A stretch of 64,000 nt of DNA. It comes from Neoaquamicrobium microcysteis (lineage in GTDB: Bacteria; Pseudomonadota; Alphaproteobacteria; Rhizobiales; Rhizobiaceae). Position 1 is the first letter of the stretch, and each line of letters starts with the position of its first letter. Shown here piece by piece: positions 34,004 to 41,156 of this stretch. The stretch is from contig NZ_VSZS01000067.1 of NCBI RefSeq assembly GCF_008180155.1, forward strand, positions 310,001 through 374,000, written 5' to 3'. The translations under genes were made by a program, and so were the position numbers. The notes beneath the pieces were generated by a model that was given only the letters and a program-made list of their open reading frames with translations, did no database searches and was not told where the DNA came from.

Positions 34004-34828
34004 TCAGTGAGCCACGCCGAGATAGGCGTCGATGACAGCCTGGTCGCTCTTCACCGCATCCGGCGTTCCGTCGGCAATCTTCTTGCCGTAGTCCAGAACG
34101 ACGACGCGGTCGGAAAGGTCCATCACCACCCCCATGTCGTGCTCTATCAGCGCGATGGTCGTGCCGCGCTGCTGGTTCACGTCGATGATGAAGCGGCTCA
34201 TGTCCTCTTTCTCTTCGAGGTTCATGCCCGCCATCGGCTCGTCGAGCAGCAGCAGCGAGGGCTCCATCGCCAGCGCGCGGCCAAGCTCCACCCGCTTCTG
34301 CAGGCCGTAGGGCAGCTTGCCCACCGGTGTGCGGCGAATGTGCTCGATCTCCAGGAAGTCGATGATCTCCTCGACCTTTTCGCGATGCTCGATCTCCTCG
34401 GCCAGCGCCGGCCCTCGCCACAGCATCTGCCAGCCGATGTTGCGCGTCATATGCACCGAGCGCCCGGCCATGATGTTTTCCAGCGTCGTCATGCCCTTGA
34501 ACAGCGCGACGTTCTGGAAGGTGCGGGCGATGCCCTGCCGCACGGCGTGGTGCGGCTTCATCGCGCGGCGCTCGTTGCCGCGAAACGTGATCGTGCCTTC
34601 CTGCGGCGTGTAGAAGCCGTTGATGACGTTCAGCATCGACGTCTTGCCGGCCCCATTCGGCCCGATGATCGCGCGTATCTCGCCCTTCCTTACGTCGAAC
34701 GAGATGTTGGTGATCGCCTTCACGCCGCCGAAGGCCAGCGACACGTTATCGACCTTCAGCAGCACGTCGCCCTTGGCGATGCCGTCGTCCTGGGTCGCAA
34801 ACTGCGTGGTCGCGGGTTGGTGGTTCAT
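34004..34828 (-). CDS. Liv-type ABC transporter ATPase (LivG-like)
   Basis: 274 residues: Walker A GPNGAGKTS, signature LPYGLQKRVELGRAL, Walker B LLLLDEPMAGMN and the typical LivG C-terminal segment VLDYGKKIADGTPDAVKSDQ. It is the second nucleotide-binding subunit of the transporter. The start overlaps the stop of the acyl-CoA synthetase gene (ATGA), tying import to activation. Confidence 0.94.
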   Translation of the reverse strand: MNHQPATTQFATQDDGIAKGDVLLKVDNVSLAFGGVKAITNISFDVRKGEIRAIIGPNGAGKTSMLNVINGFYTPQEGTITFRGNERRAMKPHHAVRQGIARTFQNVALFKGMTTLENIMAGRSVHMTRNIGWQMLWRGPALAEEIEHREKVEEIIDFLEIEHIRRTPVGKLPYGLQKRVELGRALAMEPSLLLLDEPMAGMNLEEKEDMSRFIIDVNQQRGTTIALIEHDMGVVMDLSDRVVVLDYGKKIADGTPDAVKSDQAVIDAYLGVAH

Positions 34829-36801
34829 GCCGCCGCCTCGCGCGCAGGCTGCGCCGCGCCCTCGTGCACGGCGGCGTCCTCGATCTTCACCGTCGCCCTG
34901 ATCTTGCCCTTGCGGCCGTCCTCGTAGGTCACTTCCGTCTCGACATATTTCTCGGTCGAGCCGTCGTAGAGCGCGCCGATCAAATCGTGGTAGCGCTCGT
35001 CGACGAAGGCCCGGCGCACCTTCTGGGTGCGCGTCAGCTCGCCGTCGTCCGCGTCCAGCTCCTTGTGCAGGATCAGGAAGCGCCTGATCTGCGCGCCTGC
35101 CATCATCGGCTCCTTCGCCAGCCGCCGGTTGGTCTCGTCCACGTTGCGCGCGATCATCTTGTAGACGTCCGGGTGCCCCGCCAGTTCCTGGTACGACGCA
35201 TAGGCGATGTTGTTGCGCTCGGCCCAGTCTCCCACCGCCTGAAGGTCGATGTTGATGAAGGCTGTGGCGAAATCGCGCCCGTTGCCGAAGGCCACCGCTT
35301 CCTTGATGTTGGGGAAGAACTTCAGCATGTTCTCGATGTATTTGGGCGCAAAAAGCGATCCGTCGCGTAGCCTGCCCACATCCTTGGCGCGGTCGATGAT
35401 CTTGAGCTGCCCGTCACTGTCGAAGAAGCCCGCATCGCCGGTCTTGATGAAGCCGTCCGGCGTCATCACCTCGGCGGTCTTCTCGTCTTCCTTGTAGTAG
35501 CCCGAGAACTGCCCCGGCGAGCGGAACAGAACCTCACCGTCCTCCGAAATCCGGATATCAACGTTCGGCGTCGCCGGCCCCACAGTGTCGGCGCGCACCG
35601 CGCCGTCCTTCTGTGCGGTCACGTACAGAAACGCTTCCGTCTGGCCATAGAGCTGCTTGAGGTTGATGCCGAGCGAACGGAAAAACGAGAACAGGTCGCC
35701 GCCGATGGCCTCGCCCGCCGTATAGGCGACACGGATGTTCGACAGCCCCAGCACGTTGCGCAGCGGGCCGTAGAGCAGCAGGTTGCCCAGCGCATAGGAA
35801 AGCCTGCCTGAAAGCGGCACCGGACGCTTCTCCAGTATCGCCTCGCCATGCTTTCGAGCCACCTCGATGAAATGCCGGAATATCCACTTCTTCAGCCGGC
35901 CTGCATCCTCCATGCGGATGGTCACGCTGGTCAGCAGCCCCTCGAACACGCGCGGCGGCGCGAAGTAGAAGGTCGGCGCGATCTCGCGCAGATCCTGCGG
36001 CACGGTCTGCTGGCTTTCGGGACAGTTCATGCAAAAGCCCGCGACATAGCCCTGGGCGTAGTTCAGGTAGTGGTCGCCCACCCACGCCAGCGGCAGATAG
36101 GCCAGCACGCTGTCCTTCTCCGTCAGGCTGTCGAAGGCGACGGTGTCGGATGCCGCGTTCACCGCCGCAGACGCCTTTATCATCACGCCTTTGGAGCGCC
36201 CCGTCGTGCCGGATGTATAGAGCATGACGGAGATCTCGTCGCCGCTGCCCTGCCTGATGCCTTCTTCCCACAGGCGCGCGCGCTCAGGGTCAGACGAAAG
36301 CAGCGCCCGGCCCGCCGCCTGTATCTCTTTGAAATCGTGCAGCCCTTCGCGTGCATAGTCGCGCAGGCCGCGCGCCTCGTCGTAGATCACCTCTGTCAGC
36401 GCGGGGATCTGATCGCGGAACGACAGGATCTTGTCGACCTGCTCCTGGTCCTGCACCACGGCGAAGCGAACCCCGGCATGGTCGAGCACATAGGCCATCT
36501 CCTCGGCCACCGCATCCCCGTAGACCGGCACCGGTACGCCACCGAGAGATTGCACCGCGGCAAACGTCCAGTAGAGCCGCGGCCGGTTCGCGCCCACCAC
36601 CGCCACCTTGTCGCCGCGCGAAAAGCCGATCGTCTCCAGCCCGATGGCGAAGGCGCGCACCTCGTCCATCTGCTGCGCCCAAGTCCAGCTCTGCCAGATG
36701 CCGTAGTCCTTGTGGCGCATGGCCGGGCGATCGCGAAAACGATCCGCGTTCAGCAGCAGATATTTCGGAAACGTGTCGAGCGAGGTCGCAGCTTGCGCCA
36801 A
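34825..36801 (-). CDS. AMP-dependent acyl-CoA synthetase, long-chain type
   Basis: 658 residues. The ANL-family core motif YTSGTTGRSKGVM (about 190-202), the YGQTEA motif, and the hinge TGDAGFFD...IDRAKDVGRL are all present, so adenylation and thioester formation should work. The large ACSL-type (FadD15-like) N-terminus fits long-chain or aryl-alkyl acids. As first gene of the liv operon it probably traps the imported acid as a CoA thioester; phenylalkanoates and branched fatty acids are guesses. A 227-base region separates it from the Crp/Fnr gene. Confidence 0.92.
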   Translation of the reverse strand: MAQAATSLDTFPKYLLLNADRFRDRPAMRHKDYGIWQSWTWAQQMDEVRAFAIGLETIGFSRGDKVAVVGANRPRLYWTFAAVQSLGGVPVPVYGDAVAEEMAYVLDHAGVRFAVVQDQEQVDKILSFRDQIPALTEVIYDEARGLRDYAREGLHDFKEIQAAGRALLSSDPERARLWEEGIRQGSGDEISVMLYTSGTTGRSKGVMIKASAAVNAASDTVAFDSLTEKDSVLAYLPLAWVGDHYLNYAQGYVAGFCMNCPESQQTVPQDLREIAPTFYFAPPRVFEGLLTSVTIRMEDAGRLKKWIFRHFIEVARKHGEAILEKRPVPLSGRLSYALGNLLLYGPLRNVLGLSNIRVAYTAGEAIGGDLFSFFRSLGINLKQLYGQTEAFLYVTAQKDGAVRADTVGPATPNVDIRISEDGEVLFRSPGQFSGYYKEDEKTAEVMTPDGFIKTGDAGFFDSDGQLKIIDRAKDVGRLRDGSLFAPKYIENMLKFFPNIKEAVAFGNGRDFATAFINIDLQAVGDWAERNNIAYASYQELAGHPDVYKMIARNVDETNRRLAKEPMMAGAQIRRFLILHKELDADDGELTRTQKVRRAFVDERYHDLIGALYDGSTEKYVETEVTYEDGRKGKIRATVKIEDAAVHEGAAQPAREAAA

Positions 36802-37028: not shown

Positions 37029-37703
37029 TCACGCGTCGTACGTAGTCAGCGCCTGTATATCCAGCGGCGTGATGCGGCCATGCTCGACCTTGAGCAGCCC
37101 CTCATCCTGCAGTTCCTGCAGACAGCGGTTCACCACCTGCCGCGACACGCCGACCAGCAGTCCCAGCTCCTCCTGGTTGATCTCCACCGCCGGGCCCGCC
37201 TTGGGGTAGAGCACCCGGTTGAAGAACCATGAGAGGTTGCGCGCCACCCGCGCCTTGGGGCCGAGGATGCGGTCATATTCGATGGTGGCCAGAAACTGCC
37301 CCATACGCTCGTTCAGCGCACGCACCAGATAGCGGTTGAAGCCGGTGCTGTTCTCGTAGAGCCACACGAAGGTCGCGCGCTGCATCAGCGCCATGCGCGT
37401 GTCGCGGATGGCGACCACGTCGTATTTGCGCGGCTCGTCCTTGAGCACCGAGCCCTCGCCGAACCAGCTTCCGTCGGTGGCCCCCGCAAAGGTCATCGCC
37501 TTGCCGTCGCGCGAGATGGCGCTGATCTTGACGAGGCCCGCCGTCACGCCGGTCCAGTGGTCGAGGCGGTCGCCGCGATGGCAGATATAGGCACCCTTGG
37601 CGAACTGGCGTTCGACGACGCCGCGCCGTGCCCTTTCCAGTTCGTCCTCGGTCAGTTCGCCGGCCCAGATCGCCGCGCGAACGATGTCTTCCCGTGCGTT
37701 CAT
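37029..37703 (-). CDS. Crp/Fnr-family transcriptional regulator
   Basis: 224 residues. A cNMP-type beta roll occupies about 20-140 (GAYICHRGDRLDHWTGVTAG), followed by a long dimer helix and a winged helix with recognition segment EELGLLVGVSRQVVNRCLQELQ. FNR cysteines are absent and the phosphate-binding RxA of true CRP is not evident (GEGSVLKDEPRKYD), so the effector may be another small molecule such as an acyl-CoA. It lies directly upstream of the synthetase/Liv operon and is a likely regulator of it. Confidence 0.88.
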   Translation of the reverse strand: MNAREDIVRAAIWAGELTEDELERARRGVVERQFAKGAYICHRGDRLDHWTGVTAGLVKISAISRDGKAMTFAGATDGSWFGEGSVLKDEPRKYDVVAIRDTRMALMQRATFVWLYENSTGFNRYLVRALNERMGQFLATIEYDRILGPKARVARNLSWFFNRVLYPKAGPAVEINQEELGLLVGVSRQVVNRCLQELQDEGLLKVEHGRITPLDIQALTTYDA

Positions 37704-37803: not shown

Positions 37804-38589
37804 TCAGGCGGCCTGCTGCATGTATTTGGCCGTCGGCAGGATCGTCAGCGGTGCCAGTTCGCCCTTCGGCGGACGCGCAAACAGCATCCGCTGCTCGAAC
37901 GGCGTCGACTTGAAGAACGGGAAGCGCTCGATCGTCTTGCCCATGTTTTCCGAGCACTTCGACTGAAACAGATAGACGGGGCAGACGAGGCCCGGATAGT
38001 CGCGCGAGGGCATTGCCTGCTGCGAGCCGAAGATGCGGCGGTAGAACCCGGTATGCTCCTGCTTGATCGCCGTCAGGCAATAGTCGGTGTCGAAATAGGC
38101 GCAGGCCGCAACCGCCAGCCGCAGCGTCACATAGGGCAGCGCCTTGTAGGCGCGCGAAAACTCGGTGTGGGCCGCAAACCGGCTCGGGTCGATGAAGCTC
38201 TCGCCCGCTGCAAGCCGCGGCATCAGCTCGTCGTTGAACACGGTGATGCTGGGCGAAACCGGCATCTTGCGGTGCACGTGGTGGATGCGGATCGTGCTGG
38301 CCAGCTCGCCGTCGATGAAGATGCCGAAACGGTAGGAGTTGGAAAGGTCGTCGTAGTCGTCCGTCACCATGCGCGACGGCATGTCGGTTATCATGCCGCT
38401 GGCGAGATAGGCGTCGTAGCGCAGGCGGTAGATCGCCTCGAGGTCCTCGCCGCTTTCGCAGCGGCGGTACTCCACCTGCTCCAGCAGGGCGGATACGCTT
38501 CTGGAAAAGCCCGACTCCGACGCAGAAGCCGCAACGCCCGTCGTTTCCGCCGCCTCAGCAGGCGCGGCTGCACGCGTTTCCATGCACAT
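37804..38589 (-). CDS. FeeM-like N-acyl amino acid synthase / autoinducer-synthase-fold protein
   Basis: 261 residues. After a variable Ala-rich N-terminus, the segment LEAIYRLRYDAYLASGMI is the LuxI/GNAT hallmark, and RFGIFIDGELASTIRIHHV and FSRAYKALPYVTLRLAVAACAYF correspond to the acyltransferase core as in FeeM. Known FeeM condenses an acyl-ACP with tyrosine to give N-acyl amino acids. The active acceptor here is unknown. The promoter has two perfect CtrA boxes (38616 and 38686), and a GGDEF-EAL gene lies just upstream in the same direction. Six cysteines are scattered in the C-terminal half. Confidence 0.75.
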   Translation of the reverse strand: MCMETRAAAPAEAAETTGVAASASESGFSRSVSALLEQVEYRRCESGEDLEAIYRLRYDAYLASGMITDMPSRMVTDDYDDLSNSYRFGIFIDGELASTIRIHHVHRKMPVSPSITVFNDELMPRLAAGESFIDPSRFAAHTEFSRAYKALPYVTLRLAVAACAYFDTDYCLTAIKQEHTGFYRRIFGSQQAMPSRDYPGLVCPVYLFQSKCSENMGKTIERFPFFKSTPFEQRMLFARPPKGELAPLTILPTAKYMQQAA

Positions 38590-38615
38590 TCCCCGTATTC
38601 CGCCACATCGCAGCG

Positions 38616-38630
38616 TTAACGGTACATTAA
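38616..38630. promoter_or_regulatory. CtrA box 1 before the FeeM-like gene
   Basis: TTAA-CGGTACA-TTAA, an exact match to the TTAA-N7-TTAA consensus for CtrA. It ends 27 bases upstream of the ATG at 38589 (minus strand), where binding would overlap the promoter core. Confidence 0.75.
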
Positions 38631-38685
38631 CCTCACCCCCAGTAAAGGCGAAAATCCCATCGGAGACGTTTACCGAAAGTTAACC

Positions 38686-38700
38686 TTAACAGTTAGTTAA
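38686..38700. promoter_or_regulatory. CtrA box 2 before the FeeM-like gene
   Basis: TTAA-CAGTTAG-TTAA, a second exact TTAA-N7-TTAA site, with an extra TTAA 2 bases to the left (38680-38683). It lies about 100 bases from the FeeM-like start and just beyond the stop codon of the GGDEF-EAL gene. Confidence 0.75.
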
Positions 38701-38738: not shown

Positions 38739-41063
38739 TCAGGCGGTGGAAACGGCGGGTTTGGTGCTGATCTGGCTCGCAAAGGGCCAGGTCGTGTTGG
38801 ACATCGCTTCGATGCCCGAAGCCGTCAGCGCCGAGCCGAACAGGAAGCCCTGCACCAGTTCGGGCTTCACGTCGTGCGACAGCACCTTGAGCTGCTCGAA
38901 CGTCTCCACCCCTTCGATGGTCACCGTCAGTCCCAGGAGGCGCGACAGGCTGACGATGCCGCTCAGAAGCTCCAGCGAACGCTTGCTGCGGGTCACGTCG
39001 ACGAGGAAGGAGCGGTCGATCTTCACCTTGTCCAGCGGCAGCGTGTGCAGGTAGCTGAGGCTGGAATAGCCGGTGCCGAAATCGTCCAGCGCGATCCGCA
39101 CGCCCATCCGCTTCAGCTTTTCGATATAGGTCCGCGTCTGCGACTTGTCGTCCAGCAGCGCCGTTTCTGTGACCTCGATTTCGAGGCGCTGCGGTGCCAG
39201 TCCCGACACGTCCAGCGCCCTGCTCACCTTGGCGATGATATCGTCGTTGCGGAAGTCCTTGGCCGAAAGGTTCACGGACACGCAGATCTGCGTCGGCCAT
39301 TTGACGCATTCGGTGGTGGCGGCGTTCAGCATGAAGGTGCTGATTTCCGACACGATCCCCATCTCCTCCGCCAGCGGGATGAATACCGACGGCGAGATCG
39401 GCCCGATCTCCGGATGGTCCCAGCGGCACAGCGCTTCGCAGCTCACGATGCGCATCGTCTCCATCGACACGATCGGCTGGTAGACGACGCGCAGGCCGCC
39501 CGTCTCCACGGCATGGCGCAAATCGGCCTTCATCACCTGCCGGTTGCGGAACGCCTGGTCCATCACCGCCTCGAACAGGCGCCAGCCGTTCTTGCCGTTT
39601 TCCTTTGCCTTGTAGAGCGCAAGGTCGGCCTTCACGATCATGGCGTCGACATCGGCATCCCTGGCTGTAGCCAGTACCGCGCCTGCGCTCGACTGTATGC
39701 GCAGCGCGTGGCCGGCCACGTCCACATCACCGTTCAGGCTCGCGAAGATGTCGTCCAGCAGCAGGCCGAAGGTATCCGGCTCCTTCACGTCGTTGAAGAA
39801 GATCATGAACTCGTCGCCACCGAAGCGGCTGACCTTGACGTCCTCGCCGGCGAACCGGTTCAGCCGTTCGGCGACCGCATAGATCAGCCCGTCGCCCACC
39901 GGATGCCCGAGCGTGTCGTTGACGCTCTTGAAGTCGTCGAGGTCGAAGACGGCGAGCGCGACGCTGCGGCTCTGGTCGCCGGTCGAGACCGCGTCGCTGA
40001 CCATTTCGTGAAAGTAGGCGCGGTTGGCGAGCCCGGTCAGGCTGTCGTAGCGGGCCATGAAGCGGATGCGTTCTTCCGCCTCGATGCGCGCCGTCACCTC
40101 GTCGAAGGTGATGACGCCGAGCTCGTCATGGCCCTCGCGGGCCGAGAACTCGAAATAGCGGCCGTTGGAAAACCGGATCAGGACCTTGCGGTCCTTGCCC
40201 TCGCGCAGCGCGCGCGTCAGCTGGGTTTCGGCGTAGCGGGAATCGTTGAGGCTCAGTATGCCGCCGGCAACGCCGCGCATCAGCAGGCCGCGCAGCGTGC
40301 GCCCCAGCAGTTTGTCGCCCTTCTTGACCGACATCAGCCGCGCGGCTTCCGCGTTGGCCACCACCACCCTGCCCTCGGGGCTTAGCATGATGAGGCCGGA
40401 CGACATGGTGTTGAGCGCGCGGTCGAAGCGCTGCGCGATCTGGTCTGCGCGCCGGTGCCCGATGACGGCCGAAAACAGCACCTCGCGCACGCCCTTCGCA
40501 GTACCCGAGATGATGAAGAAGAACGGGATGATGAGCAGGCCCAGCACCACGTTCTGCATGTCGCCGCGCATCAGCAGGCCGACCGCGATGGGCGACACGA
40601 AGGTCAGCGAGAAGATCGCGACCATCCGCGGCGAGCCATAATTGCGCCCCGCCACCGTGACCATGGAGCCCATGGTGACGGCGACAGCCGCGAGCTCGGC
40701 ATAGGGGTCGGGATAGAGATAGATGGCGATGAAGCAGAACGTGCCCAATGTCAGGCCCTGGATGCTTCCCTTGAGGATGTAGTCGGCCTCGCAGCGCTTG
40801 GCGCTCTCATAGTCTCGAATGGCCGATGTCTTGACCACGCGGCGCATGCTCACGAAACGCCAGGCGCCCATGGCGGCCATCAGGAACGCCATCCAAAGAT
40901 AGGCGTGCGCCCCGGTCTTCAGGTAGGACATGATGGCGACGATGGCGTGGCAGAACGCACCAATGAGGATCATGTGCACGTTGTCATACAACGAGCGCAC
41001 GAACTGCACGTATACGTCGGCAGGGACCTGTTCGGGCTTTACTCGGTTCATCTCACGCGCCAT
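38739..41063 (-). CDS. Membrane GGDEF-EAL c-di-GMP enzyme
   Basis: 774 residues from ATG 41063, which has AGAGG 5 bases upstream; a GTG 8 codons earlier is possible. Six or so transmembrane helices fill residues 25-200 (a MASE-like sensor), then a PAS-like region to about 335, GGDEF at 415-419 and EAL at 543-545. Catalytic EAL residues NLSAKDF, EVTETALLDD, DDFGTGYSSL, KIDR and EGVET are intact. Either or both activities are possible. It lies directly upstream of the FeeM-like gene with CtrA boxes in between, and may read the same signal. Confidence 0.92.
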   Translation of the reverse strand: MAREMNRVKPEQVPADVYVQFVRSLYDNVHMILIGAFCHAIVAIMSYLKTGAHAYLWMAFLMAAMGAWRFVSMRRVVKTSAIRDYESAKRCEADYILKGSIQGLTLGTFCFIAIYLYPDPYAELAAVAVTMGSMVTVAGRNYGSPRMVAIFSLTFVSPIAVGLLMRGDMQNVVLGLLIIPFFFIISGTAKGVREVLFSAVIGHRRADQIAQRFDRALNTMSSGLIMLSPEGRVVVANAEAARLMSVKKGDKLLGRTLRGLLMRGVAGGILSLNDSRYAETQLTRALREGKDRKVLIRFSNGRYFEFSAREGHDELGVITFDEVTARIEAEERIRFMARYDSLTGLANRAYFHEMVSDAVSTGDQSRSVALAVFDLDDFKSVNDTLGHPVGDGLIYAVAERLNRFAGEDVKVSRFGGDEFMIFFNDVKEPDTFGLLLDDIFASLNGDVDVAGHALRIQSSAGAVLATARDADVDAMIVKADLALYKAKENGKNGWRLFEAVMDQAFRNRQVMKADLRHAVETGGLRVVYQPIVSMETMRIVSCEALCRWDHPEIGPISPSVFIPLAEEMGIVSEISTFMLNAATTECVKWPTQICVSVNLSAKDFRNDDIIAKVSRALDVSGLAPQRLEIEVTETALLDDKSQTRTYIEKLKRMGVRIALDDFGTGYSSLSYLHTLPLDKVKIDRSFLVDVTRSKRSLELLSGIVSLSRLLGLTVTIEGVETFEQLKVLSHDVKPELVQGFLFGSALTASGIEAMSNTTWPFASQISTKPAVSTA

Positions 41064-41156
41064 CCCAGCCTCTGATGCCACAGCCACATTAAGAAAGGCT
41101 TATGGAACAATGGCAGTTTGACGTTACGGAATGCGCGAGAACCCTGAGTTTGAAGC

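Follow-up and report, generated by a model that had tools for sequence, protein, structure and literature searches.

Two neighbouring genes in the window, the 64-kb stretch of DNA analysed here, may well constitute an uncharacterised, conserved two-gene module of the Rhizobiales, in which an N-acyl synthase driven by CtrA is joined by a membrane c-di-GMP enzyme. The first gene (P0001, 37804-38589, minus strand) is an open reading frame of 261 aa with its ATG at 38589, and encodes a FeeM-family acyl synthase of the GNAT fold. Directly upstream and in the same direction lies the second (P0002, 38739-41087, minus strand; 782 aa, starting at a GTG at 41087 or an ATG at 41063), which encodes a membrane-PAS-GGDEF-EAL protein; this arrangement, proposed in an earlier note on this DNA, is borne out by the open reading frames and the Pfam domains of their products.

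Between the end of the GGDEF-EAL gene (38739) and the start of the synthase (38589), we confirmed the two exact copies of TTAA-N7-TTAA to which the earlier note had drawn attention: a start-proximal box at 38616-38630, 26 bases from the synthase ATG, and another at 38686-38700. The latter and an adjoining third TTAA, likewise reported before and present at 38680-38683, belong to a composite CtrA-type element at 38669-38700, which on the minus strand reads TTAA-N7-TTAA-N2-TTAA-N7-TAAA, with three of its half-sites perfect and the fourth carrying a mismatch. Its core, TTAA-N2-TTAA-N7-T(A/T)AA, is present at two places in the genome, in the synthase promoter and, at C44:32173-32193, in a polysaccharide-export promoter, which is divergent, with a Poly_export lipoprotein gene on one side and a Wzz-type exopolysaccharide gene on the other. 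By eye, two genomes of the same genus, G002 and G004, show this Poly_export/Wzz arrangement too, and G006 has a similar site (C29:155149).

Downstream of the synthase, on the same strand, lie a Crp/Fnr-type regulator gene (37029-37703) and, by eye, an acyl-CoA ligase-like gene (34825-36801). A Crp/Fnr homologue occupies the equivalent place in 12 of 30 neighbourhoods and the ligase-like gene falls in a cluster of 22 genomes, which indicates synteny of close relatives only.

A FeeM-family acyl synthase

P0001 almost certainly belongs to the FeeM-family enzymes: it scored 158.7 bits against the Pfam FeeM profile (PF21926; E 1.3e-46; cut-off 27) and its predicted fold agrees, so that the FeeM-like identity suggested by the earlier note held up in the profile search. 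Its scores against Autoind_synth (PF00765; 16.3 bits, cut-off 24) and against the PEP-CTERM exosortase-associated acyltransferase model TIGR03694 (13.8 bits, cut-off 111.95) were below threshold, and no NCBIfam model reached its cut-off for this protein. An exosortase-type acyltransferase was rejected on the TIGR03694 score. We likewise rejected a further FeeM paralogue elsewhere in this genome, since the weak match on contig C28 is a LuxI-family gene. This TraI-type synthase gene lies in a plasmid-like region (C28:36446-39911) that by eye contains LuxR-type, trb and repA-like genes, with a TTAA-N7-TTAA box (38667) immediately before the repA-like gene.

A single-sequence search of the PDB with P0001 returned nothing useful. 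We built an AlphaFold2 model from a 29-sequence alignment (mean pLDDT 88.6), for which Foldseek placed FeeM chains (2g0b) at ranks 1-6 (best E 2.2e-11, TM-score 0.78-0.82), followed by GNAT enzymes and the AHL synthases LasI, EsaI, MesI and BjaI (E 1e-7 to 7e-7). At the level of sequence, the profile gave weak PDB matches to EsaI (E 0.0072) and FeeM (E 0.068). The weak EsaI alignment places R57, D77, D80 and R101 of the synthase on EsaI residues that we take to be part of the LuxI electrostatic cluster, and a profile comparison with the TraI-type protein of this genome, at a probability of 19%, aligns D77, D80, R101, D134 and R137. Across the 89 homologues, R57, D77, R101, R157, H179, Y183 and E232 are invariant, and D80 (88), D134 (80) and R137 (82) nearly so.

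The hallmarks of LuxI enzymes are R, D-x-x-D, R and E/D-x-x-R, together with a Trp in the loop before D-x-x-D. The former residues are present in the synthase, although the EsaI and TraI-type alignments that support their assignment are both weak, and no conserved Trp precedes D-x-x-D in the 29-sequence alignment. Judged from sequence and model, the synthase seems to be an intact member of the FeeM family that has LuxI-like features. It probably yields an N-acyl product, whose acyl donor and acceptor are not readable from sequence; that this product is a diffusible signal is a tentative suggestion.

Searches with a profile built from 29 synthase sequences placed the gene mainly in the Rhizobiales. 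Within the family of the window it was found at E <=1e-20 in 177 of 247 genomes (70 were without it), covering 83 of 109 genera; in the order sample 53 of 297 genomes, from 18 of 123 genera, had it, and in the class sample 3 of 385 genomes at E <=1e-10, the window's own genome counted. A first scan of named genomes found no relative. Distant FeeM-like relatives (27-35% identity) are located on plasmids of Sulfitobacter, Loktanella, Acidiphilium and Palleronia, and three synthase homologues (G420, G649 and G879) contain in-frame stops and are probably decaying genes.

The enzyme might instead make a structural or surface aminolipid, or acylate an amine of the envelope or of an exopolysaccharide, in a CtrA-timed attachment programme that the GGDEF-EAL protein also regulates. 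The position of the sole other core in the genome, between Poly_export and Wzz-type genes (likewise, by eye, in G002 and G004), and the lack of a conserved LuxR partner would both fit such a role. So would the precedent of Caulobacter HfsK, described in passages of PMC5362036 as a GNAT-family c-di-GMP effector thought to modify the holdfast polysaccharide; like the synthase, HfsK is of the GNAT family and linked to c-di-GMP and attachment, but according to the same passages it is closest to FemX, has two tandem GNAT domains and itself binds c-di-GMP, unlike the synthase. Moreover, the profile and fold of P0001 are FeeM-like, its residues are of LuxI type, and by eye none of its neighbours in the window is a polysaccharide gene. 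We consider this surface role possible though rather unlikely, and prefer the reading of an N-acyl synthase under CtrA control.

A conserved element upstream of the synthase

CtrA is the master regulator of the cell cycle in these bacteria, and TTAA-N7-TTAA is its binding-site pattern. Within the 64 kb of the window this pattern occurs exactly twice; 100 dinucleotide shuffles averaged 0.01 occurrences and never gave more than 1. Genome-wide (4.84 Mb) there are 26 exact matches versus 18 for the reversed control pattern, so that the bare motif alone is weak evidence and the weight rests on position and conservation.

To count boxes, we took the 330 bases that precede the conserved synthase core in each of 89 genomes, including the window (81 genera, 9 families); these derive from 91 gathered neighbourhoods, with the distant homologues G027 and G036 left out of the box and pair counts. 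The exact box lies upstream of the synthase in 47 of the 89 (65 boxes in 29,303 bases, with at least two in 15 regions), whereas dinucleotide shuffles of the same regions gave it in 0.64 regions on average and in 3 at most. When spacings of 0-15 were scanned, only 2, 7 and 13 stood out, every other spacing appearing in at most 5 regions: TTAA-N2-TTAA is present in 55/89 and the spacing of 13 in 28/89, while the reversed AATT-N7-AATT is found in 7. The remaining 702,274 bases of these neighbourhoods contain a single exact N7 box and no pair with the N2 spacing. The core is likewise confined to the upstream regions, 44/89 of which contain it against 0 in the rest of those neighbourhoods, and eight of the 89 have four perfect half-sites. 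Exact box or core is present in 67/89 regions. Among the 42/89 without an exact box, 20 retain the core with a degenerate TAAA half, and 22/89 have neither. A box with one mismatch is seen in 80/89 regions and missing from 9/89, a soft figure given that the reversed control also reaches 33/89.

The exact box is present in 39 of the 81 genera with an upstream region examined, and in families f1, f6, f16, f20, f26, f27 and f202; the single members of f201 and f207 have none. G002 and G004, of the window's genus, have an identical start-proximal box, and a separate second box is seen in some other genera. A set of named genomes, which partly overlaps the first set and is rich in Mesorhizobium, provided 80 loci, 78 with enough upstream sequence: the exact box is present at 17 of these, a box with no more than one mismatch at 77 and a stricter composite at 68, with no exact box in the remaining 792,086 bases. 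GANTC, the CcrM site, is modestly more frequent in the synthase upstream regions (1.9 vs 1.3 per kb; 38/89 regions) and was left out of account. The shuffles of window and upstream regions, the 702,274-base neighbourhood background and the core counts together rule out that the boxes arose by chance. The earlier note had staked its proposal beforehand on their conservation, and conserved they are, as exact boxes in 47 of the 89 genomes and as exact box or core in 67.

The genome encodes one clear CtrA orthologue (C46:96128-96796), 97% identical to a CtrA query sequence, the next response regulator reaching 36%. Of the genome's 24 other exact sites we inspected 11 and found genes behind seven, with no convincing gene at four. 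By Pfam, the genes are flagellin, a DUF1465 gene (two sites) and a C93 peptidase; further sites precede two repA-like genes, by eye, and a large protein whose first 387 residues have no Pfam match. Across eight genomes of the window's genus the core matched 25 times, compared with 3 control matches, and in AT-rich genomes (for example G038 and G042) core elements were at control level. Eleven core-element loci were inspected in relatives: two are at polysaccharide-export genes, two at mraZ (G007, C23, by Pfam; G016, C26, by eye), one at flagellin (G045, C6, by Pfam) and one at a synthase promoter, and the remaining five adjoin genes without an evident CtrA link.

These data make a good circumstantial case that CtrA very probably controls the synthase promoter, where it would bind the element. 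A different regulator binding the conserved TTAA element is quite improbable, although several observations point its way: the N2 step departs from the textbook CtrA box, of the 42 regions that lack an exact box, 20 hold the core with a degenerate TAAA half, bare sites are hardly enriched genome-wide, and five of the eleven core loci in relatives adjoin genes that have no evident connection to CtrA. The exact N7 spacing is nevertheless under strong selection, an exact box precedes flagellin in this genome, the core is found before flagellin in G045 and before mraZ in G007 and G016, and there is a one-mismatch box 279 bases upstream of ctrA itself, all of which argue for CtrA.

The GGDEF-EAL partner

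P0002 matches the Pfam families EAL (2.6e-61), GGDEF (1.9e-34) and PAS_7 (8.9e-9), and its residues 1-217 match no Pfam family. An AlphaFold2 model of the protein has six long helices between residues 38 and 227, which may all be membrane helices; hydropathy is clearly membrane-like only at 37-55, 104-122 and 155-197. With the whole model, Foldseek retrieved GGDEF-EAL proteins, among them PA0575, DosP and MorA. The EAL catalytic positions E, L, N, E, DD, K, E and Q are kept in all 86 partner homologues, and the A of EAL and one further E in 85/86 each. GGDEF is intact in the window and in 70/86 homologues, and degenerate (MGDEF, MGDQF and others) in 16. Phosphodiesterase activity is therefore the predicted common denominator.

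A partner homologue lies upstream of the synthase on the same strand in 86 of the 89 genomes, within about 0.5 kb in 84 of them. No partner is in view in G465, where the contig ends, G475 or G879. The 86 include weaker cases: in G500 the homologue aligns from residue 314 only and lies 1.9 kb away, and in G034 it is shortened; that of G026 lies 1.7 kb from the synthase. The partner genes of G009 and G874 have in-frame stops. Among the named loci (78 usable of 80), the partner adjoins the synthase at 77. No third gene recurs by the pair, the next neighbour clusters spanning at most 22 genomes, and there is thus no conserved LuxR partner.

Co-occurrence was scored in 60 genomes using strong matches to the synthase (E <1e-40) and to the membrane domain (E <1e-11), G027 and G036 counting as without both. 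The membrane-PAS domain was strong in 29/29 genomes with a strong synthase match and in 1/31 of the others; strong presence or absence of the two genes thus agrees in 59/60 (Fisher p 5e-16, relatedness ignored). At E 0.001 each gene is found in 31/60, G027 then giving weak matches to both on different contigs. Divergence of synthase and partner is correlated over 86 genomes (r 0.88), a value that shared ancestry alone raises. The one discordant genome, G048, carries a related membrane GGDEF-EAL gene (C6:36000-47500) with no FeeM-like gene nearby, possibly a partner without a synthase. Where the promoter of the partner is visible, it contains an exact box in 0 of 82 genomes; boxes precede the synthase only, and CtrA control of the GGDEF-EAL gene's own promoter was rejected on this count.

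From these comparisons, gain and loss of the two genes appear to go hand in hand, and it is highly probable that they form a functional pair. That they are mere neighbours travelling together, the GGDEF-EAL protein being functionally unrelated to the synthase or its product, is very improbable: the pair is not a plain operon (boxes mark a promoter of the synthase's own and are absent from that of the partner), 3/89 synthases have no partner in view (one at a contig end) and the partner-like gene of G048 stands alone, yet the pair persists while surrounding genes reshuffle, presence and absence are concordant, and the two proteins diverge in step, if partly through ancestry.

Proposed mechanism and known systems

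In the mechanism that we propose for the pair, phosphorylated CtrA would bind the composite element and switch on the FeeM-like enzyme. With acyl-ACP or acyl-CoA as donor, this enzyme would acylate the amine group of a small acceptor and so form an N-acyl amino acid or a related lipid-like product. The upstream gene would supply a membrane sensor fused to PAS, GGDEF and EAL domains; its function would be linked to the acyl product, and it would act mainly as a c-di-GMP phosphodiesterase and in most species perhaps as a cyclase too. In Caulobacter, high c-di-GMP makes CckA dephosphorylate CtrA, and the pair would therefore couple the product to the CtrA-active state. c-di-GMP normally acts at the transition from the motile to the attached state, and the presence of the core at both the synthase and the polysaccharide-export genes hints at a role in this transition; through c-di-GMP and the polysaccharide-export promoter with the same core, surface attachment would be coupled as well. 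The effect of high c-di-GMP on CckA, and through it on CtrA, also figures in a model set out in passages of PMC6473078.

Two further steps are unlikely on present evidence. The partner could be the receptor of the acyl product, and the pair could then form a self-contained device, in which a CtrA-driven acyl signal of the FeeM type would be read by the membrane domain of the partner and converted into a change in c-di-GMP without a LuxR protein or a histidine kinase, c-di-GMP feeding back on CtrA activity. If such a device exists, neighbouring cells would influence each other's cell-cycle state and attachment. The synthase gene is widespread, being present in 83 of the 109 sampled genera of the family, with the partner apparently gained and lost alongside; Mesorhizobium strains such as M. 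ciceri WSM1271 carry the module. If confirmed, the module would bring to rhizobial biology an acyl product timed by CtrA and perhaps also a direct route from acyl signal to c-di-GMP.

FeeM (2g0b) shares a Pfam family with the synthase, far over the cut-off, and is its best fold match, at 17-19% identity. It originates from uncultured soil microbes, and its gene sits in a biosynthetic cluster; unlike FeeM, the synthase has a conserved C-terminal tail past the Pfam domain and a LuxI-like D-x-x-D loop. The AHL synthases of LuxI type (EsaI, LasI, BjaI and the TraI-type gene on C28) are similar in fold, and some of their residues align with those of the synthase, which differs from them in scoring below the Autoind_synth cut-off and in having no conserved adjoining LuxR gene. 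In Vibrio, CqsA/CqsS and LuxM/LuxN place a synthase gene beside that of a multi-helix membrane sensor, and those sensors are histidine kinases. The adjacency of synthase and sensor is alike here, with GGDEF-EAL outputs on a putative receptor.

Links between acyl signals, CtrA and c-di-GMP have been described before. Passages of PMC9120067 report that pulses of sinI in Sinorhizobium meliloti are modulated by c-di-GMP levels, and a 2014 paper (PMC4046655) predicts scattered CtrA sites before LuxI/LuxR-type genes in Rhizobiales; as described there, that survey used pfam00765 and autoinducer-binding genes, and the synthase falls below the pfam00765 cut-off. Searches for acyl synthases in the main texts of an alphaproteobacterial c-di-GMP gene comparison (PMC9756655) and of the CtrA papers PMC7200025, PMC4433202 and PMC2877005 turned up nothing relevant, the Sinorhizobium meliloti CtrA paper among them yielding no such gene. 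In titles and abstracts of the open-access PMC articles retrieved, we found no description of the gene pair or of its control by CtrA.

The closest described wiring is that of Dinoroseobacter shibae, which has two CtrA sites before luxR2, where expression of luxI2 and luxI3 is strongly reduced in mutants of the CtrA pathway and c-di-GMP enzymes belong to the same CtrA network, as reported in passages of PMC4046655 and PMC6473078. The claim of the earlier note that no described system has exactly this wiring stands for the enzyme family, the gene pair and the element, but must be narrowed in that this bacterium already joins CtrA sites, luxI2/luxR2 and c-di-GMP enzymes. Where Dinoroseobacter shibae, in these accounts, has CtrA sites before autoinducer synthase genes and c-di-GMP enzymes within the network, the locus described here differs in its FeeM-family enzyme, its membrane GGDEF-EAL partner and its conserved composite element.
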